From: Actinopolymorpha sp. NPDC004070
Lineage (GTDB): Bacteria; Actinomycetota; Actinomycetes; Propionibacteriales; Actinopolymorphaceae
Reading direction: 5' to 3'
DNA length: 64,000 nucleotides
Assembly: GCF_040610475.1 (NCBI RefSeq)
Contig: NZ_JBEXMJ010000005.1
Location: 328,479 to 392,478, forward strand
The position numbers and the translations under genes were made by a program. Below are positions 43,520 to 47,300 of this stretch, piece by piece (within the stretch, counting starts at the first letter, position 1; each line of letters begins with the position of its first letter). Under the pieces are notes generated by a model. The model saw nothing but the letters and a program-made list of their open reading frames with translations. It had not been told where the DNA came from and ran no database searches.

Positions 43520-44563
43520 ATGACCACCCAGATGGCCCGGGAGATCGCTGAGCAGCCGGAGGCGGTTGCCCGGACCCTGGACGGTCTCCGTCCGCTGCGC
43601 GGCGAGCTGCACCGCCTCGCCGAGGGCACCCGTCACATCCTGTTCGTCGCCCGCGGCTCCTCCGACAACGCCTGCGTCTACGGCCGCTACCTGGTCGAGA
43701 CCCACGCCCACCGGATGGCGGGACTCGCCGCGCCGAGCGTGGCCACCCACTACCACGCCGAGGTCGACCTCACCGACGCGCTGGTCGTGTGCGTCTCGCA
43801 GTCCGGTGAGACCCGCGAGATCGTGGAGACCCAGGAGTGGGCCGCCGGTCGCGGCGCCCGGACGGTCGCGGTGACCAACGACGGGACGAGTGCGCTGGCC
43901 CGGGGTGCCGACCTGACTCTCGCCACCGACGCCGGCCGCGAGTACGCCGTACCCGCCACCAAGACCTACACCACCCAGCTCACCGCGATGGCCGTCCTGG
44001 CCACCGCCCTCGCACCCGACCCGACGTCCCTGGACGCCGACCTGGCCCGGGTTCCCGCGCAGATGTCGGAGCTGGTCGAGCGGCGGGAGGGCGTGGACGC
44101 GGCGGCCGCCCAGCTGGCGAAGTCGGCGGAGACTCTCGTGTCCGGGCGCGGGCTGCTGTTCGGTACCGCGCTGGAGGTGGCGCTGAAGCTGGAGGAGACC
44201 TGCCTGCGGCCGGTCCGCGGCCTGTCGTACGCCGACCTGCGGCACGGCCCGATCGCGGTCGTCGACGCCGACGTGGCGGCCATCGTGGTCGCGGCGAAGG
44301 ACGGCCCGGTGGTGGGCGGACTCACCGAGGTCGCCACCGACCTCGCCCGCCGGGGCGCCACCACCATCGGGATCGGCGGCGACGCGGCGTTCGGCGCCGC
44401 GTGCGCGCTGTCGGTGCCGGGACCGGACCTGCCGGAGATGGTGGCGCCGCTGGCCGCCGTCGTGCCCGGGCAGCTCATGGTGGAGAGCCTGGCCCGCCGG
44501 CTCGGCCTGGACCCCGACGCACCGCGTGGGCTTTCCAAGGTCACCCAGACCGACGCGGGCTGA
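43520..44563 (+). CDS. SIS-domain sugar-phosphate isomerase/deaminase
   Basis: A 347-residue protein with two SIS domains (~25-170 and ~195-335), equal to the isomerase half of glucosamine-6-phosphate synthase without the glutaminase half. Markers are FVARGSSDNACVYGRYLVE, VVCVSQSGETREIVE, PATKTYTTQLTAMAVL and the C-terminal GPIAVVDADVAAIVV region. It probably interconverts an amino-sugar phosphate and a ketose phosphate. It is divergent from the GntR/UTRA regulator, with a 137-base shared promoter region that shows no clear dre-type palindrome. A hairpin follows the gene. Confidence 0.87.
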   Translation: MTTQMAREIAEQPEAVARTLDGLRPLRGELHRLAEGTRHILFVARGSSDNACVYGRYLVETHAHRMAGLAAPSVATHYHAEVDLTDALVVCVSQSGETREIVETQEWAAGRGARTVAVTNDGTSALARGADLTLATDAGREYAVPATKTYTTQLTAMAVLATALAPDPTSLDADLARVPAQMSELVERREGVDAAAAQLAKSAETLVSGRGLLFGTALEVALKLEETCLRPVRGLSYADLRHGPIAVVDADVAAIVVAAKDGPVVGGLTEVATDLARRGATTIGIGGDAAFGAACALSVPGPDLPEMVAPLAAVVPGQLMVESLARRLGLDPDAPRGLSKVTQTDAG

Positions 44564-44639: not shown

Positions 44640-44668
44640 GGCCCGCGATCGAAATTCGGTCGCGGGCC
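44640..44668 (+). terminator. Hairpin between the SIS gene and the erm leader
   Basis: A 9-bp stem (44640-44648 with 44660-44668) with an 11-base AT-rich loop lies ~75 bases after the SIS stop and just upstream of the leader promoter. It would insulate the erm unit from read-through. Confidence 0.65.
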
Positions 44669-44683
44669 GTCGCGTACCCGCAC

Positions 44684-44689
44684 TAGGGT
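44684..44689 (+). promoter_or_regulatory. -10 box (TAGGGT) of the erm leader transcript
   Basis: TAGGGT ends 7 bases before the leader ATG at 44697, so the transcript is probably leaderless. The AT-rich GAAATTC at 44651-44657 lies just upstream of where a -35 would fall, a layout seen at WhiB7-dependent promoters; that link is speculative. Confidence 0.5.
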
Positions 44690-44696
44690 CGCGGCC

Positions 44697-44771
44697 ATGT
44701 GCATGTGTGCGTGCGCGTTCTTCATCCGCCTGCGGTTGGACCGCCCCACCGATCTCTCGGTGACGGTCTGA
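44697..44771 (+). CDS. erm leader peptide with Cys-rich start and RLR motif
   Basis: A 24-codon ORF beginning MCMCACAFFIRLRLDR and ending before a TGA at 44769-44771, 204 bases upstream of the erm start. Arg11-Leu12-Arg13 (44727-44735) is the Arg-X-Arg type motif at which macrolide-bound ribosomes stall on RLR-class erm leaders. Codons 20-22 (44754-44762) read CTCTCGGTG, an exact copy of part of the downstream terminator arm. The ATG lies 7 bases after a TAGGGT box, so translation should be leaderless. The three Cys in the first six residues are unusual. The role as an attenuation sensor is inferred from layout and known erm systems. Confidence 0.72.
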   Translation: MCMCACAFFIRLRLDRPTDLSVTV

Positions 44772-44937
44772 CCCAGGCGTCTTCGCGCCGGCCGGGACTT
44801 TCCTCGCCGGTCTGGTGCCTTCCGGCTGACCCCTCGCGGCACACCTCCGCCCGGTTGCCTCTCTTCGGCTGCTGTCCGGTCGTCGTTCCTCCCCGCGTGC
44901 CGGCGTGACCTCCCGAGTGCTCTCGGTGGGGCCTTTT
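44754..44937 (+). promoter_or_regulatory. Predicted transcription attenuator of erm
   Basis: A terminator-like hairpin (44909-44917 with 44922-44930, 4-base loop, one mismatch, one G-T pair) is followed by CCTTTTC (44932-44938). Its right arm contains CTCTCGGTG (44920-44928), identical to the end of the leader ORF (44754-44762). The left arm could therefore pair with the leader instead, forming an antiterminator when a ribosome stalls at the RLR codons. When translation runs to the leader stop, the ribosome would cover 44754-44762 and the terminator would form. Confidence 0.6.
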
Positions 44938-44975
44938 CACGGCTCCCATCCGCAGCGCACCCCTCGAGGATCGTC

Positions 44976-45830
44976 ATGCCTGCCCGTACGCCCCGCTCGT
45001 CCGCTCCTGCCCGCTCGTCCACGCCTGCTCGCTCGTCCGCTCGTCGGTCCGCCAACCACCACGGGATCCACCTGCTGCGGTCCGCCGCCGCGGTGCGCGG
45101 GCTGGTCGAGTCCGCCGGCCTCGGGCCGGACTCCCTGGTGCTGGACCTCGGCGCCGGGCCGGGAACGCTCACCGCTCCCCTCGCCCGCACCGGCGCCCGC
45201 GTCCTCGCCATCGAACGCGACCCCGGATTCCTCACCCGGCTGGAGCGCCGGTTCGGCGACCACCCGAACGTCCGGGTGGTCGCCGGTGACCTGGTGAAGG
45301 TGCCGCTGCCACGCCGGCCGTTCCAGGTGGTCGCGTCCATCCCGTACGACCTGTCCACCCTGCTGCTGCGCCGGCTGCTGCCGGACGCGAACGGCGACGC
45401 GAGCAGCCTGGCCGCCGCCGACCTGGTGGTCGAGTGGGGCTTCGCCCAGCGCGTCAGCCGCGCGCTCCCCCGCGACCTGGAGACCGCCCGGTGGGGCGCG
45501 ACGTACGAGCTGGGGGTGATCCGCCGGGTCCGGGCGGCGGCGTTCGCACCCGCGCCGTCGGTGGACTCCGCGCATCTGCGGGTCCGGCCCCGTCCCGGAC
45601 TGGCCGGCAGGCGCGTCCGGCTGGTGCTGTACGCGATGCTGGCCGAGGCGTACCGGTGGCCGGACCAGCCGGCGCGCACCGTGGTCGCCGGCGTGGCCGG
45701 CCGGTCGGCGGCCCGCCGGATCCTCGGCGACGCGGGCCTGGAGCGGGGAGTTCGCGCGGGCGCGGTCCCGGTCGACGGGTGGGCCGGGCTCGCGCGGTCG
45801 GCGCTCGACCTGTCCCGGCAGGGGCGATGA
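44976..45830 (+). CDS. erm: Erm-type 23S rRNA adenine-N6 methyltransferase
   Basis: A 284-residue S-adenosylmethionine-dependent enzyme of the Erm/KsgA family, which methylates 23S rRNA (A2058 in the family) and gives macrolide-lincosamide-streptogramin resistance. A Ser/Arg/Pro-rich N-terminal tail (~1-26) is followed by NHHGIHLLRS, motif I LDLGAGPGT (56-64), the acidic IERD (~79-82), AGD (103-105) and SIPYDLST (121-128). The last is the catalytic (N)IPY motif with Ser for the usual Asn. FAPAPSVDSAHLRVRPR closes the core. GAGGA lies seven to eight bases upstream. An attenuator precedes it. Confidence 0.82.
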   Translation: MPARTPRSSAPARSSTPARSSARRSANHHGIHLLRSAAAVRGLVESAGLGPDSLVLDLGAGPGTLTAPLARTGARVLAIERDPGFLTRLERRFGDHPNVRVVAGDLVKVPLPRRPFQVVASIPYDLSTLLLRRLLPDANGDASSLAAADLVVEWGFAQRVSRALPRDLETARWGATYELGVIRRVRAAAFAPAPSVDSAHLRVRPRPGLAGRRVRLVLYAMLAEAYRWPDQPARTVVAGVAGRSAARRILGDAGLERGVRAGAVPVDGWAGLARSALDLSRQGR

Positions 45831-45865: not shown

Positions 45866-46660
45866 CTACCTGCGTCCGCGCACCTCCGCCGCCGGACGGC
45901 CCAGCACCGGGCGGGTGTCGACCGTGCCGTCGACGATCCCGTCGGCGAGGTCTGCCAGCCGGATGCGGTTGCGCCGGGCGTACCCGCGCAGCTGGGTGAA
46001 CGCCTCGTCCACCCCGAACCCGCCGCGTTCGGCGAGGATGCCCTTGGCCTGCTCGATCACCACCCGGCTGTCCAGCGCCGACCGCAACTGGTGGGCCAGC
46101 ACGCCGGACTGCCGCAGCGCCCGCCGGCGTACGACCGTGGCGGCGGCGACGTCGGCCAGTCCCTGGGCGAGGGTCAGCGCGTCGTCGCCGGGCCAGATCT
46201 CGGCCGCAGCCTCGCATGCGGTGCCGGTCGCGGGCGCCGCACGGTGGAGGGTGATCGCGCCGATCACCGCGCCCCCCACCCGCAGCGGCAGGGCGTACGC
46301 ACCGGTGTAACCGGCACCGAGCGCCAGCGCCGCGAACCGCGGCCATCGGTCCAGCGCCGTGCCCAGGTCGGGCGTTCCGACCGCGGCGAAGGTGCGGAAG
46401 CAGTCCACGCCCGGGCCGTCCGGCCCGGCCAGCGCGGCGGCCTCGACCTGCGCCACCACGTCGTCGGAGGAGGCGGCGACACCGAGCGCCCCGTCGTCGC
46501 CGGCGAGCAGGACCCCGGCGGCACCGATGTCCAGCAGCGAGATGGCGCCGCGGACGAGGGAGCCGAGATGATCGCCGGCGTCCCGGTCGTCCTGGTCGTC
46601 CGGCGAACCCGCGAGCGCCACGAACGCCGCTATGAGTTCCCGCTCGGTCACTGTCCGCAT
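45866..46660 (-). CDS. GAF and ANTAR domain regulator
   Basis: A 264-residue signalling protein. A GAF sensor domain (~residues 35-165) is followed by an ANTAR RNA-binding domain (~195-245: LDSRVVIEQAKGILAERGGFGVDEAFTQLRGYARRNRIRLADLADGIV). ANTAR proteins bind paired hexaloop hairpins in nascent RNA and stop termination. The GAF ligand is unknown. ATG 46660 lies 7 bases after a minus-strand TACCCT box, suggesting leaderless expression. It converges on erm with a 35-base gap; no functional link is evident. Confidence 0.87.
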   Translation of the reverse strand: MRTVTERELIAAFVALAGSPDDQDDRDAGDHLGSLVRGAISLLDIGAAGVLLAGDDGALGVAASSDDVVAQVEAAALAGPDGPGVDCFRTFAAVGTPDLGTALDRWPRFAALALGAGYTGAYALPLRVGGAVIGAITLHRAAPATGTACEAAAEIWPGDDALTLAQGLADVAAATVVRRRALRQSGVLAHQLRSALDSRVVIEQAKGILAERGGFGVDEAFTQLRGYARRNRIRLADLADGIVDGTVDTRPVLGRPAAEVRGRR

Positions 46661-46667
46661 CGCGCAC

Positions 46668-46673
46668 AGGGTA
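46668..46673 (-). promoter_or_regulatory. -10 box (TACCCT) of the GAF-ANTAR gene
   Basis: Minus-strand TACCCT lies 7 bases before the start codon at 46660 and supports this start over upstream in-frame ones. Confidence 0.4.
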
Positions 46674-47300
46674 GACCCGCGCGTCGCGGCTGTCGTCACC
46701 GGACCGGCCGTGCGACCGGGGAGGACTGCGGGATGGGAGACGGTGACGTTCCGAAACGAGAAGGTCACCTTTTGTCCGACAATCCGGTAACCCCGGGTTC
46801 CTGCACCGCTACCGGACCGCTATGGTCATCTCGCGATGTCCGCAGGTGGCCATCGCGGCAGCCGCCCAGGCCCCTGGCAGCGGCCTGCGCCGACCACGCG
46901 CCACCGCGCATCGCCGGCGAGCAGCGTCCCCAGCCGTCGCGGGCCCGTTTCGAAACGCCGGTTCGAAACACCGCCCCGCGTCGGCCTGACTGACATTCCA
47001 CCGAGCACCATGCCGTACGCCCGATGCGCCGGGCGGTCGCTGGAGGGGGCGACCGCAGGCCCACCGAGGTGTCCGAACGGGTGCTCCGGCCGGGGGCGAG
47101 GGGACCCACCGGCCCGGCGCCGGAGCGGATTTCGGAGGCGGATCCGCTCCGGTGCCGACGATCTCCCCCGGGCCTGCCCGGGGGTCACCCACCGCCCGCG
47201 CCCCGACTACGGCATTCGGCGTACGCCGGACCGTCGGTGAGCTCGCGCGGTCGGCCGTTCGGCAGAGGTGCCGGCCCGTCCGCGTGACGAGGCTGGACGC
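46674..47300. other. Intergenic region with GTTTCGAAAC palindromes and hairpins
   Basis: This 627-base gap has no convincing gene. CGTTTCGAAACG (46947-46958) is a perfect 12-bp palindrome, and GTTCGAAAC (46962-46970) follows. An 11-bp hairpin lies at 47120-47152 and an 8-bp hairpin at 47165-47184; both are upstream of the rightward membrane-protein gene. GGTGAC/GTCACC (46742-46769) followed by four T is a weaker hairpin. Confidence 0.45.

Follow-up and report, generated by a model that had tools for sequence, protein, structure and literature searches.

A predicted leaderless Arg-X-Arg leader ahead of actinobacterial erm genes and its likely role in a macrolide-sensing RNA switch

Introduction

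Soil actinobacteria are a likely source of erm genes, and some actinobacterial erm genes, such as Streptomyces ermSF/ermSV and pikR, have leader peptides. How such a leader could sense a drug is best asked with the ErmDL leader in mind, for which macrolide arrest at a +X+ motif is established, namely at Arg-Leu-Arg (RLR), where Leu occupies the P site and Arg the A site (PMC8298421, available text). When 35 known erm genes and homologues of them were surveyed in 2024, no uORF pattern common to all emerged, and independent origins were postulated (PMC11264731, available text). A preliminary description of a 64,000-nt stretch of DNA from Actinopolymorpha sp. NPDC004070 (hereafter the window) proposed a complete macrolide-type attenuator with a Cys-rich, leaderless leader peptide upstream of an erm gene. 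Does this short reading frame sense macrolides, and by what route would it control the gene behind it? Here we compare the locus across eight Actinopolymorphaceae genomes (the family, G000-G007, G000 being the genome of the window), fold its RNA and survey actinobacterial erm loci. The models make it likely that this is a conserved macrolide-sensing leader, in which a stall at the RLR codons of a leaderless ORF would steer the RNA into an erm-permitting fold.

Results

The elements of the locus are as follows.

44651-44656, + strand: candidate WblC/WhiB7 box GAAATT, 3 nt 5' of a weak -35 position (44660-44665); spacer 18 nt
44684-44689, + strand: -10 box TAGGGT, 7 nt 5' of the leader ATG (sequence)
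44697-44771, + strand: leader ORF MCMCACAFFIRLRLDRPTDLSVTV and stop, 24 codons, predicted leaderless (sequence; eight of eight family genomes)
44727-44735, + strand: Arg-Leu-Arg, leader codons 11-13, +X+ macrolide arrest motif (sequence; conservation)
44743-44752, + strand: segment S1, GCCCCACCGA, predicted to pair with S2 (off) or S4 (on)
44756-44768, + strand: segment S2, CTCGGTGACGGTC, inside leader codons 20-24, predicted to pair with S1 (off) or S3 (on)
44907-44917, + strand: segment S3, GACCTCCCGAG, predicted, with 44902-44906, to be able to pair also with the erm Shine-Dalgarno sequence (SD) and AUG
44922-44933, + strand: segment S4, CTCGGTGGGGCC, predicted partners S3 (terminator-like hairpin), S1 (on) or S5
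44934-44937, + strand: TTTT 3' of S4 (sequence)
44941-44952, + strand: segment S5, GGCTCCCATCCG, predicted to be able to pair with S4 within the S3:RBS helix
44966-44969 and 44976-44978, + strand: GAGG SD of erm and erm ATG (sequence)
44976-45830, + strand: erm-type 23S rRNA adenine N6-methyltransferase, 284 aa (PF00398, NF000499, nearest solved chains)

The product of the downstream gene passes the cut-off of 24 bits for PF00398 (RrnaAD) with 82.9 bits. With NF000499, the NCBIfam Erm equivalog, it scores 148.6 bits, under the cut-off of 212 (ksgA TIGR00755, 90.1 bits), and hence we call the gene erm-type and give it no numbered Erm class. Its nearest solved chain is Erm(38) (7f8a, E 8.6e-21), the next being another rRNA adenine N6-methyltransferase, and it scores 419.0 bits with our Erm profile, of which the query itself is a member, versus 41.1 bits with our KsgA profile. 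A separate ksgA-type gene, itself a member of the KsgA profile, lies elsewhere in the same genome (G000:C17). Judged by these matches, the gene at 44976-45830 encodes a putative 23S rRNA A2058 methyltransferase and likely confers macrolide resistance. Convergent with it, on the minus strand, 45866-46768 encodes a GAF/ANTAR-domain protein, and seemingly the same protein is seen by eye past the erm end in G003 and G004 (L004 and L002).

Upstream of the gene, the 24-codon ORF, the TAGGGT box followed by 7 bases, RLR at codons 11-13, the hairpin (44909-44931, followed by CCTTTTC) and a 9-base copy of part of it are all present as first described. Given a -10 box 7 nt before the ATG, transcription would begin at the A of the ATG or at the adjacent base, and the leader mRNA is predicted, from the -10 spacing alone, to be leaderless. 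The copied bases, CTCTCGGTG, are found at 44754-44762 (leader codons 20-22) and at 44920-44928. The exact copy is real, but first-order shuffling of the spacer yields a repeat of equal or greater length in 3 of 60 cases (p 0.05), so that alone it is near chance and was ruled out as stand-alone evidence. As a whole, the leader RNA (44697-44990) is more stable than shuffled sequence (z -4.64, with 0 of 200 shuffles as good), and the window is without an Rfam match at gathering scores. Directly 5' of the leader region, 43520-44563 encodes a SIS-domain protein of the GlmS/NagB-II type, the end of which (..LSKVTQTD..) is also seen by eye 5' of the leader in G001, G003, G004 and G006.

The family conserves this layout. 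All eight genomes have an erm orthologue, the other seven being 54-85% identical to that of the window, and in each the layout recurs 5' of it, with RLR in seven leaders and RPR in G006; all eight likewise have an S2 segment with the capacity, proposed from the window, to pair with the left hairpin arm. The leaders start with MCMCACAFFIRLR.., MCAFAFFVRLR.., MCACAFFVRLR.., MCAFNALFVRLR.., MFGFTACFFCRLR.., MCAFYFIRLR.., MVAGSFAACFFIRPR.. and MCMQFSCAFFVRLR.., each of them beginning 7-8 nt 3' of a TANNNT box. From ATG to RLR the distances are 30, 24, 24, 27, 30, 21, 36 and 33 nt, and because these six lengths are all divisible by 3, the frame looks selected as far as RLR. Past the motif the leader ends diverge (..LSVTV, ..PSVTV, ..TDSR, ..PTSR and ..TESR, each before the stop), with the SVTV end in G000 and G003, an earlier TGA stop in G002, G004, G005, G006 and G007, and a 29-aa ORF in G001. 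The RNA past RLR, CTCGGTGACGGTCTGAYC, is nearly constant across the family, with a single T-to-C difference in G006. A frame kept to R-X-R and lost beyond it, where the RNA is nearly constant, suggests that conservation concerns the peptide as far as the arrest motif and the RNA from there on. Of the 16-base S2 core, CGGTGACGGTCTGAYC, each family genome has exactly one copy, always at the leader. Outside the family, 22 of 237 further genomes of the order contain the core pattern too, at 23 places in total (for example L079-L090), and the reversed pattern is found in 0 of 245. Twelve of the 23 outside places were read and none has S4 or RLR codons nearby, which argues that those are not copies of the switch.

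To see how far the design extends, we surveyed 101 actinobacterial loci scoring higher on the Erm than on the KsgA profile; 15 of these loci went into the former and 8 of 13 ksgA controls into the latter. The set consists of 23 + 2 loci, 69 top-ranked rows of a longer list (29 and the next 40) and 7 hand-picked lower rows. Dropped rows were L025, L026 and L028-L030 (28-32% identity, unscored), L024 and L027 (the places of L119 and L068) and L041 (identical with L001). A leader was defined as TANNNT followed after 5-9 nt by an ATG or GTG, with 8-40 codons and a start between 430 nt before and 70 nt after the match start. A leaderless-type ORF with R-X-R is found at 87 of the 101 erm loci, and no locus has such an ORF lacking R-X-R. 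The other 14 are without a leader by this fixed criterion, although under relaxed conditions L067 seems to have one, and possibly also L113 and L147. In L006 the ORF taken first by the scan differs from the family leader, although the locus has the family leader too; the 87 are counted per locus and are unaffected. Antisense controls gave an ORF at 6 of 101 loci and one with R-X-R at 1 of 101, first-order random sequence 4.8 and 2.2 per 101, respectively, and the regions upstream of ksgA 0 of 13. At least one R-X-R leader occurs under 31 of 41 genus labels, where the label of L040 may duplicate another. Between -10 box and start lie 7 nt in 59 of the 87 leaders and 6 nt in another 22, and the X of R-X-R is Leu (23), Pro (19), Ile (18), Ala (15), Val (8), Met (3) or Gly (1). 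Leader types include ..FFIRLR.., ..AYWRPR.. ending in VTA and stop, ..FIRIRRS and stop, and, in family f3, MITYFVMVRRARLRAGEGCLGMASAR and stop with its kin, overlapping the erm start. The leaderless design, suspected to be undescribed, is present as a leaderless-type R-X-R leader and is not peculiar to this organism. The duplicated arm does not generalize to other actinobacterial erm leaders, and as a common rule it was rejected because the longest repeat in 66 non-overlapping leaders averages 7.18 versus 6.97 in shuffled sequence, with 9% of leaders at p <= 0.05.

These comparisons bear on two other explanations. If the ORF had arisen by chance and the conserved segments served another role, for example mRNA stability, one could understand why the leader C-terminus is not kept in frame and why the 9-base repeat by itself is near chance. 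Neither the ATG-to-RLR distances, multiples of 3 at six different lengths, nor the frequency of leaderless-type R-X-R ORFs (87 of 101 erm loci versus 1 of 101 antisense, 2.2 per 101 in Markov sequence and 0 of 13 at ksgA) fit with this, and we regard it as very unlikely. By sequence comparison, the whole layout of leader, R-X-R and erm exceeds chance. The second explanation, a cysteine-responsive attenuator in which a leaderless Cys-rich ORF senses cysteine supply, draws on the opening of the leader, MCMCACA, and on mycobacterial Cys-rich uORFs with proposed attenuation (PMC4633059, available text). Like the present leader, these are short Cys-containing ORFs upstream of a gene in an actinobacterium; unlike it, they precede cysteine-metabolic or hypothetical genes, and the available text of PMC4633059 mentions no role of R-X-R. 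The gene downstream is here erm and no sulfur gene. The Cys-rich character stressed in the preliminary description is not conserved either, the family leaders having 3, 1, 2, 1, 2, 1, 1 and 2 Cys (G000, G001, G003, G004, G002, G005, G006 and G007) at varying places while R-X-R is kept in all eight. Since Cys varies in the family and is missing before R-X-R in 44 of the 87 actinobacterial erm leaders, cysteine sensing was dropped, and we give it almost no probability. A macrolide-sensing leader remains the reading that we follow below.

The promoter may add another level of control. WblC-dependent promoters have a GAAAWY box 3 nt before the -35 element, a TANNNT -10 element, a spacer of 16-19 nt and a start 7-8 nt after the -10, and in S. 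coelicolor an Erm(O)-type gene is upregulated by WblC (PMC7157823, available text). The putative promoter in the window agrees with this consensus in GAAATT, the 3-nt distance, the 18-nt spacer, TAGGGT and 7 nt to the ATG, but its -35 (TCGCGG) is poor. In the survey, 67 of the 87 leader promoters carry an AT block (WWWW) at a constant position upstream of the -10 box, versus 5.6 expected, and 47 of 87 have AAAWY there, versus 0.55 expected. By group, the block is found in 6 of 8 (f1), 13 of 15 (f3), 9 of 20 (f23, the weakest) and 39 of the remaining 44 promoters. A WhiB7 orthologue (EPWGVWGG, RGRP) is encoded in the four family genomes that were read for it (G000, G005, G006 and G007). The AT block of erm leader promoters thus appears to match the WblC/WhiB7 box, and WhiB7 control is putative. 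A 29-nt palindrome, GGCCCGCGATCGAAATTCGGTCGCGGGCC, spans the WhiB7-type box and -35 region (44640-44668); a similar repeat is present in G001, G003 and G004, and by eye in none of the remaining four family genomes. Candidate readings are an operator or a terminator for the upstream SIS-domain gene.

How could a stalled ribosome open the gene? The segments S1-S4 allow two sets of pairings that exclude each other, S1:S2 with S3:S4 (off-fold) and S2:S3 with S1:S4 (on-fold). We used equilibrium folding and masked a stalled ribosome with Leu12 in the P site, up to an assumed edge counted past the first base of the P-site codon. With the edge at +12 or +15 and the RNA ending at S4+6, S2:S3 reaches 0.98 or more and S1:S4 0.88 or more in all eight genomes, and the predicted on-fold has S2:S3 nested inside a 10-bp S1:S4 helix. 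The pairing of S2 with the left hairpin arm, suggested earlier for a stalled ribosome, is predicted at these edges, but not as an on-fold made of S2:S3 alone. Nor does S2:S3 form in the fold first suggested as a check, with 44697-44752 masked and RNA to 44990; it appears only on shorter RNA ending near S4. With a ribosome at the leader stop, S3:S4 is 1.00 (G000), 0.26 (G001), 0.92 (G003), 0.80 (G004), 0.97 (G002), 0.31 (G005), 0.13 (G006) and 1.00 (G007), that is, at least 0.80 in five of eight and low in G001, G005 and G006.

The predictions are sensitive to the assumed edge and to the length of the RNA. At +18, G000 reverts to S1:S2 and S3:S4 (1.00) and the on-fold is weak in G001, G002 and G003; from +21 to +27, S3:S4 is 1.00 in G000 and S2:S3 is held throughout in G007 only. 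Without a ribosome, RNA to S4+6 is at equilibrium already in the on-fold in five of eight genomes (G001, G002, G003, G004 and G007), and hence the model requires that S1:S2 forms first on the growing RNA, which makes the order of folding matter. On a growing transcript with the edge at +15, S2:S3 remains above 0.8 until the RNA is 19 nt short of the erm ATG in G000, 14 nt in G004 and G005, 11 nt in G003 and 9 nt in G001 and G002; in G006 it never falls below 0.90 and in G007 it recovers after one dip to 0.48. At full length with the stalled ribosome, the minimum free energy (MFE) fold lies 2-12 kcal/mol below the on-fold in G000, G001, G004 and G005, and at +15 in G003, and in these five genomes it places S3 and its 5' neighbour over the erm SD and AUG. 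The on state must therefore be kinetically held.

The S2:S3 duplex is better than shuffles in seven of eight genomes (z -3.0 to -4.3; -1.2 in G002) and the S3:S4 duplex weakly so (z -0.4 to -3.0). In an eight-row alignment (A2), standard pairs fill 92.8% of on-fold and 95.5% of off-fold cells versus 38-55% and 27-48% in slid versions, the on-fold count being lowered by MAFFT, which in four rows misaligned the two outer pairs of S2:S3. Two-sided changes amount to one in the on-fold (S2:S3, U-A to C-G in G006), a number matched by 167 of 500 shuffles, and to zero in the off-fold; other pairs change on one side or not at all, and many never vary. These pair counts support conservation, and as covariation they are weak. 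Energy swaps between genomes gave no signal for S1:S2 (p 0.15), S3:S4 (p 0.95), S2:S3 (p 0.09) or S1:S4 (p 0.34), so that species-specific co-variation is unsupported for these four helices. In the model, a stall at RLR is predicted to favour a nested fold that removes the terminator-like and the start-occluding pairings, a prediction that hinges on the assumed edge and on folding order.

What, then, would the off state do to erm? In five genomes (G000, G001, G003, G004 and G005) the erm AUG and three of the four SD bases pair with the S3 region at a probability near 1, which only 1-3% of upstream shuffles reach. In G002, G006 and G007 the start-site pairing is equalled by 17%, 10% and 53% of shuffles, respectively, and is not clearly above them. 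The S3:RBS pairing is stronger in native than in swapped combinations (permutation p 0.0014, uncorrected for the relatedness of the sequences). The distance from S4 to the SD is 28-36 nt in all eight genomes, that from S2 to S3 42-144 nt.

A different output, put forward in the preliminary description, is transcription attenuation only, in which S3:S4 acts as an intrinsic terminator that the stalled ribosome prevents; the start-site pairing would then be incidental. S3:S4 followed by CCTTTTC in the window would fit this, as would 3-4 U soon past the hairpin in G005 and G007, and the same logic is described for actinobacterial whiB7 (PMC10727445, PMC4128351, available text). However, the U-run is short in G001 (CCTTC), G003 (CCTTCTC) and G004 (CCTCTTC) and absent in G002 (CCACGTG) and G006 (GTGTCC), the S3:S4 duplex is only weakly above shuffles, and a terminator has no need of a near-fixed S4-to-SD spacing. 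We therefore hold attenuation on its own to be rather unlikely. The terminator-like hairpin has its U-run in the window, but this is not conserved and the left arm can cover the erm start in five of eight genomes, which makes termination one possible output and start-site occlusion at least as likely. On the basis of the start-site helix, the S3:RBS swaps, the near-fixed S4-to-SD spacing and the missing or short U-runs, we infer that the main output would be occlusion of the erm start, with pausing or termination at S4 as a possible second layer.

The proposed switch would work as follows. Under ribosome stress, WhiB7 would raise transcription. Without drug, S1:S2 is predicted to form, or else a ribosome at the leader stop to cover S2; S3, left free, would pair with S4 in the hairpin during transcription and, after synthesis of the erm start, form the helix over SD and AUG that would keep erm off. 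With drug, and if the leader behaves like ErmDL, the ribosome would halt while Leu12 occupies the P site and Arg13 the A site. The halted ribosome would disrupt the outer S1:S2 helix and let S2:S3 nest in S1:S4, and with S3 and S4 both occupied neither the hairpin nor the start-site helix could form, so that erm would be made.

Discussion

The ErmDL leader has a Shine-Dalgarno sequence of its own, and the ermC/ermB leader motif differs from that of RLR leaders. The Actinopolymorpha leader differs from ErmDL in being predicted leaderless, in having 10 residues before RLR and in its WhiB7-type promoter in a GC-rich actinobacterium; it shares with ErmDL, the leader of ermD in Bacillus, an RLR arrest motif in a short leader before erm (PMC8298421, available text). 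As in the ermC/ermB translational attenuators, stall-dependent refolding would free the erm start (PMC11264731, available text). Unlike in these, S3 has three possible partners, the predicted on-fold is S2:S3 nested in S1:S4 and the spacer is 144 nt. The whiB7/wblC uORF attenuator is similar in that an actinobacterial uORF senses ribosome drugs through a terminator/antiterminator (PMC10727445, PMC4128351, available text). It regulates a transcription factor gene, whereas the leader described here precedes erm, and the mycobacterial whiB7 uORF has a Shine-Dalgarno sequence about 10 nt upstream (PMC4128351, available text). The same source names erm(37) of mycobacteria as an exception among erm genes and places it in the whiB7 regulon (PMC4128351, available text). 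Judging by sequence features, the system described here would differ from the known ones in its predicted leaderless start, in a WhiB7-type promoter on the same transcript and in its breadth in actinobacteria. In the open-access literature searched, the available text gives no account of leaderless R-X-R leaders for actinobacterial erm genes.

Across clades the leader sequence, the folds and even the overlap with erm differ, and promoter geometry and R-X-R appear to be what is kept. On balance, we lean towards the view that most actinobacterial erm genes share one two-key switch, in which a WhiB7-type promoter starts transcription exactly at a leaderless ORF and an Arg-X-Arg arrest motif within this ORF restricts opening of the gene to drugs that block the tunnel. 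The transcript would be supplied in response to general ribosome stress, and erm would be released by the drug. Against the lack of a universal pattern in the published survey, one geometry of leaderless-type start and R-X-R recurs across 31 of the 41 genus labels, mostly behind a WhiB7-type box (67 of 87). If this holds true, soil actinobacteria use leaderless translation itself as a drug sensor, and two questions become testable: how leaderless initiation proceeds in the presence of macrolides, and how a single gene integrates WhiB7 as a general alarm with a sensor specific for the drug.

The survey also holds leaders of other shapes. In family f3 (L009-L023, for example L011:1470-1550) the leaderless R-X-R leader overlaps the erm match start in 15 of 15 loci, so that control there must use a geometry, such as overlap or coupling, other than the four-segment switch. 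The erm gene of Actinosynnema sp. ALI-1.44 (L039:1401-1439) has a 12-residue, GTG-start leaderless-type leader, MACFCASRLRRR and stop, with two Cys and RLR. At L130, an extremely Cys-rich leaderless-type leader, MSACSCACAACCCAACCAITRIRRS and stop, lies about 195-117 nt 5' of the start of the erm-type match.
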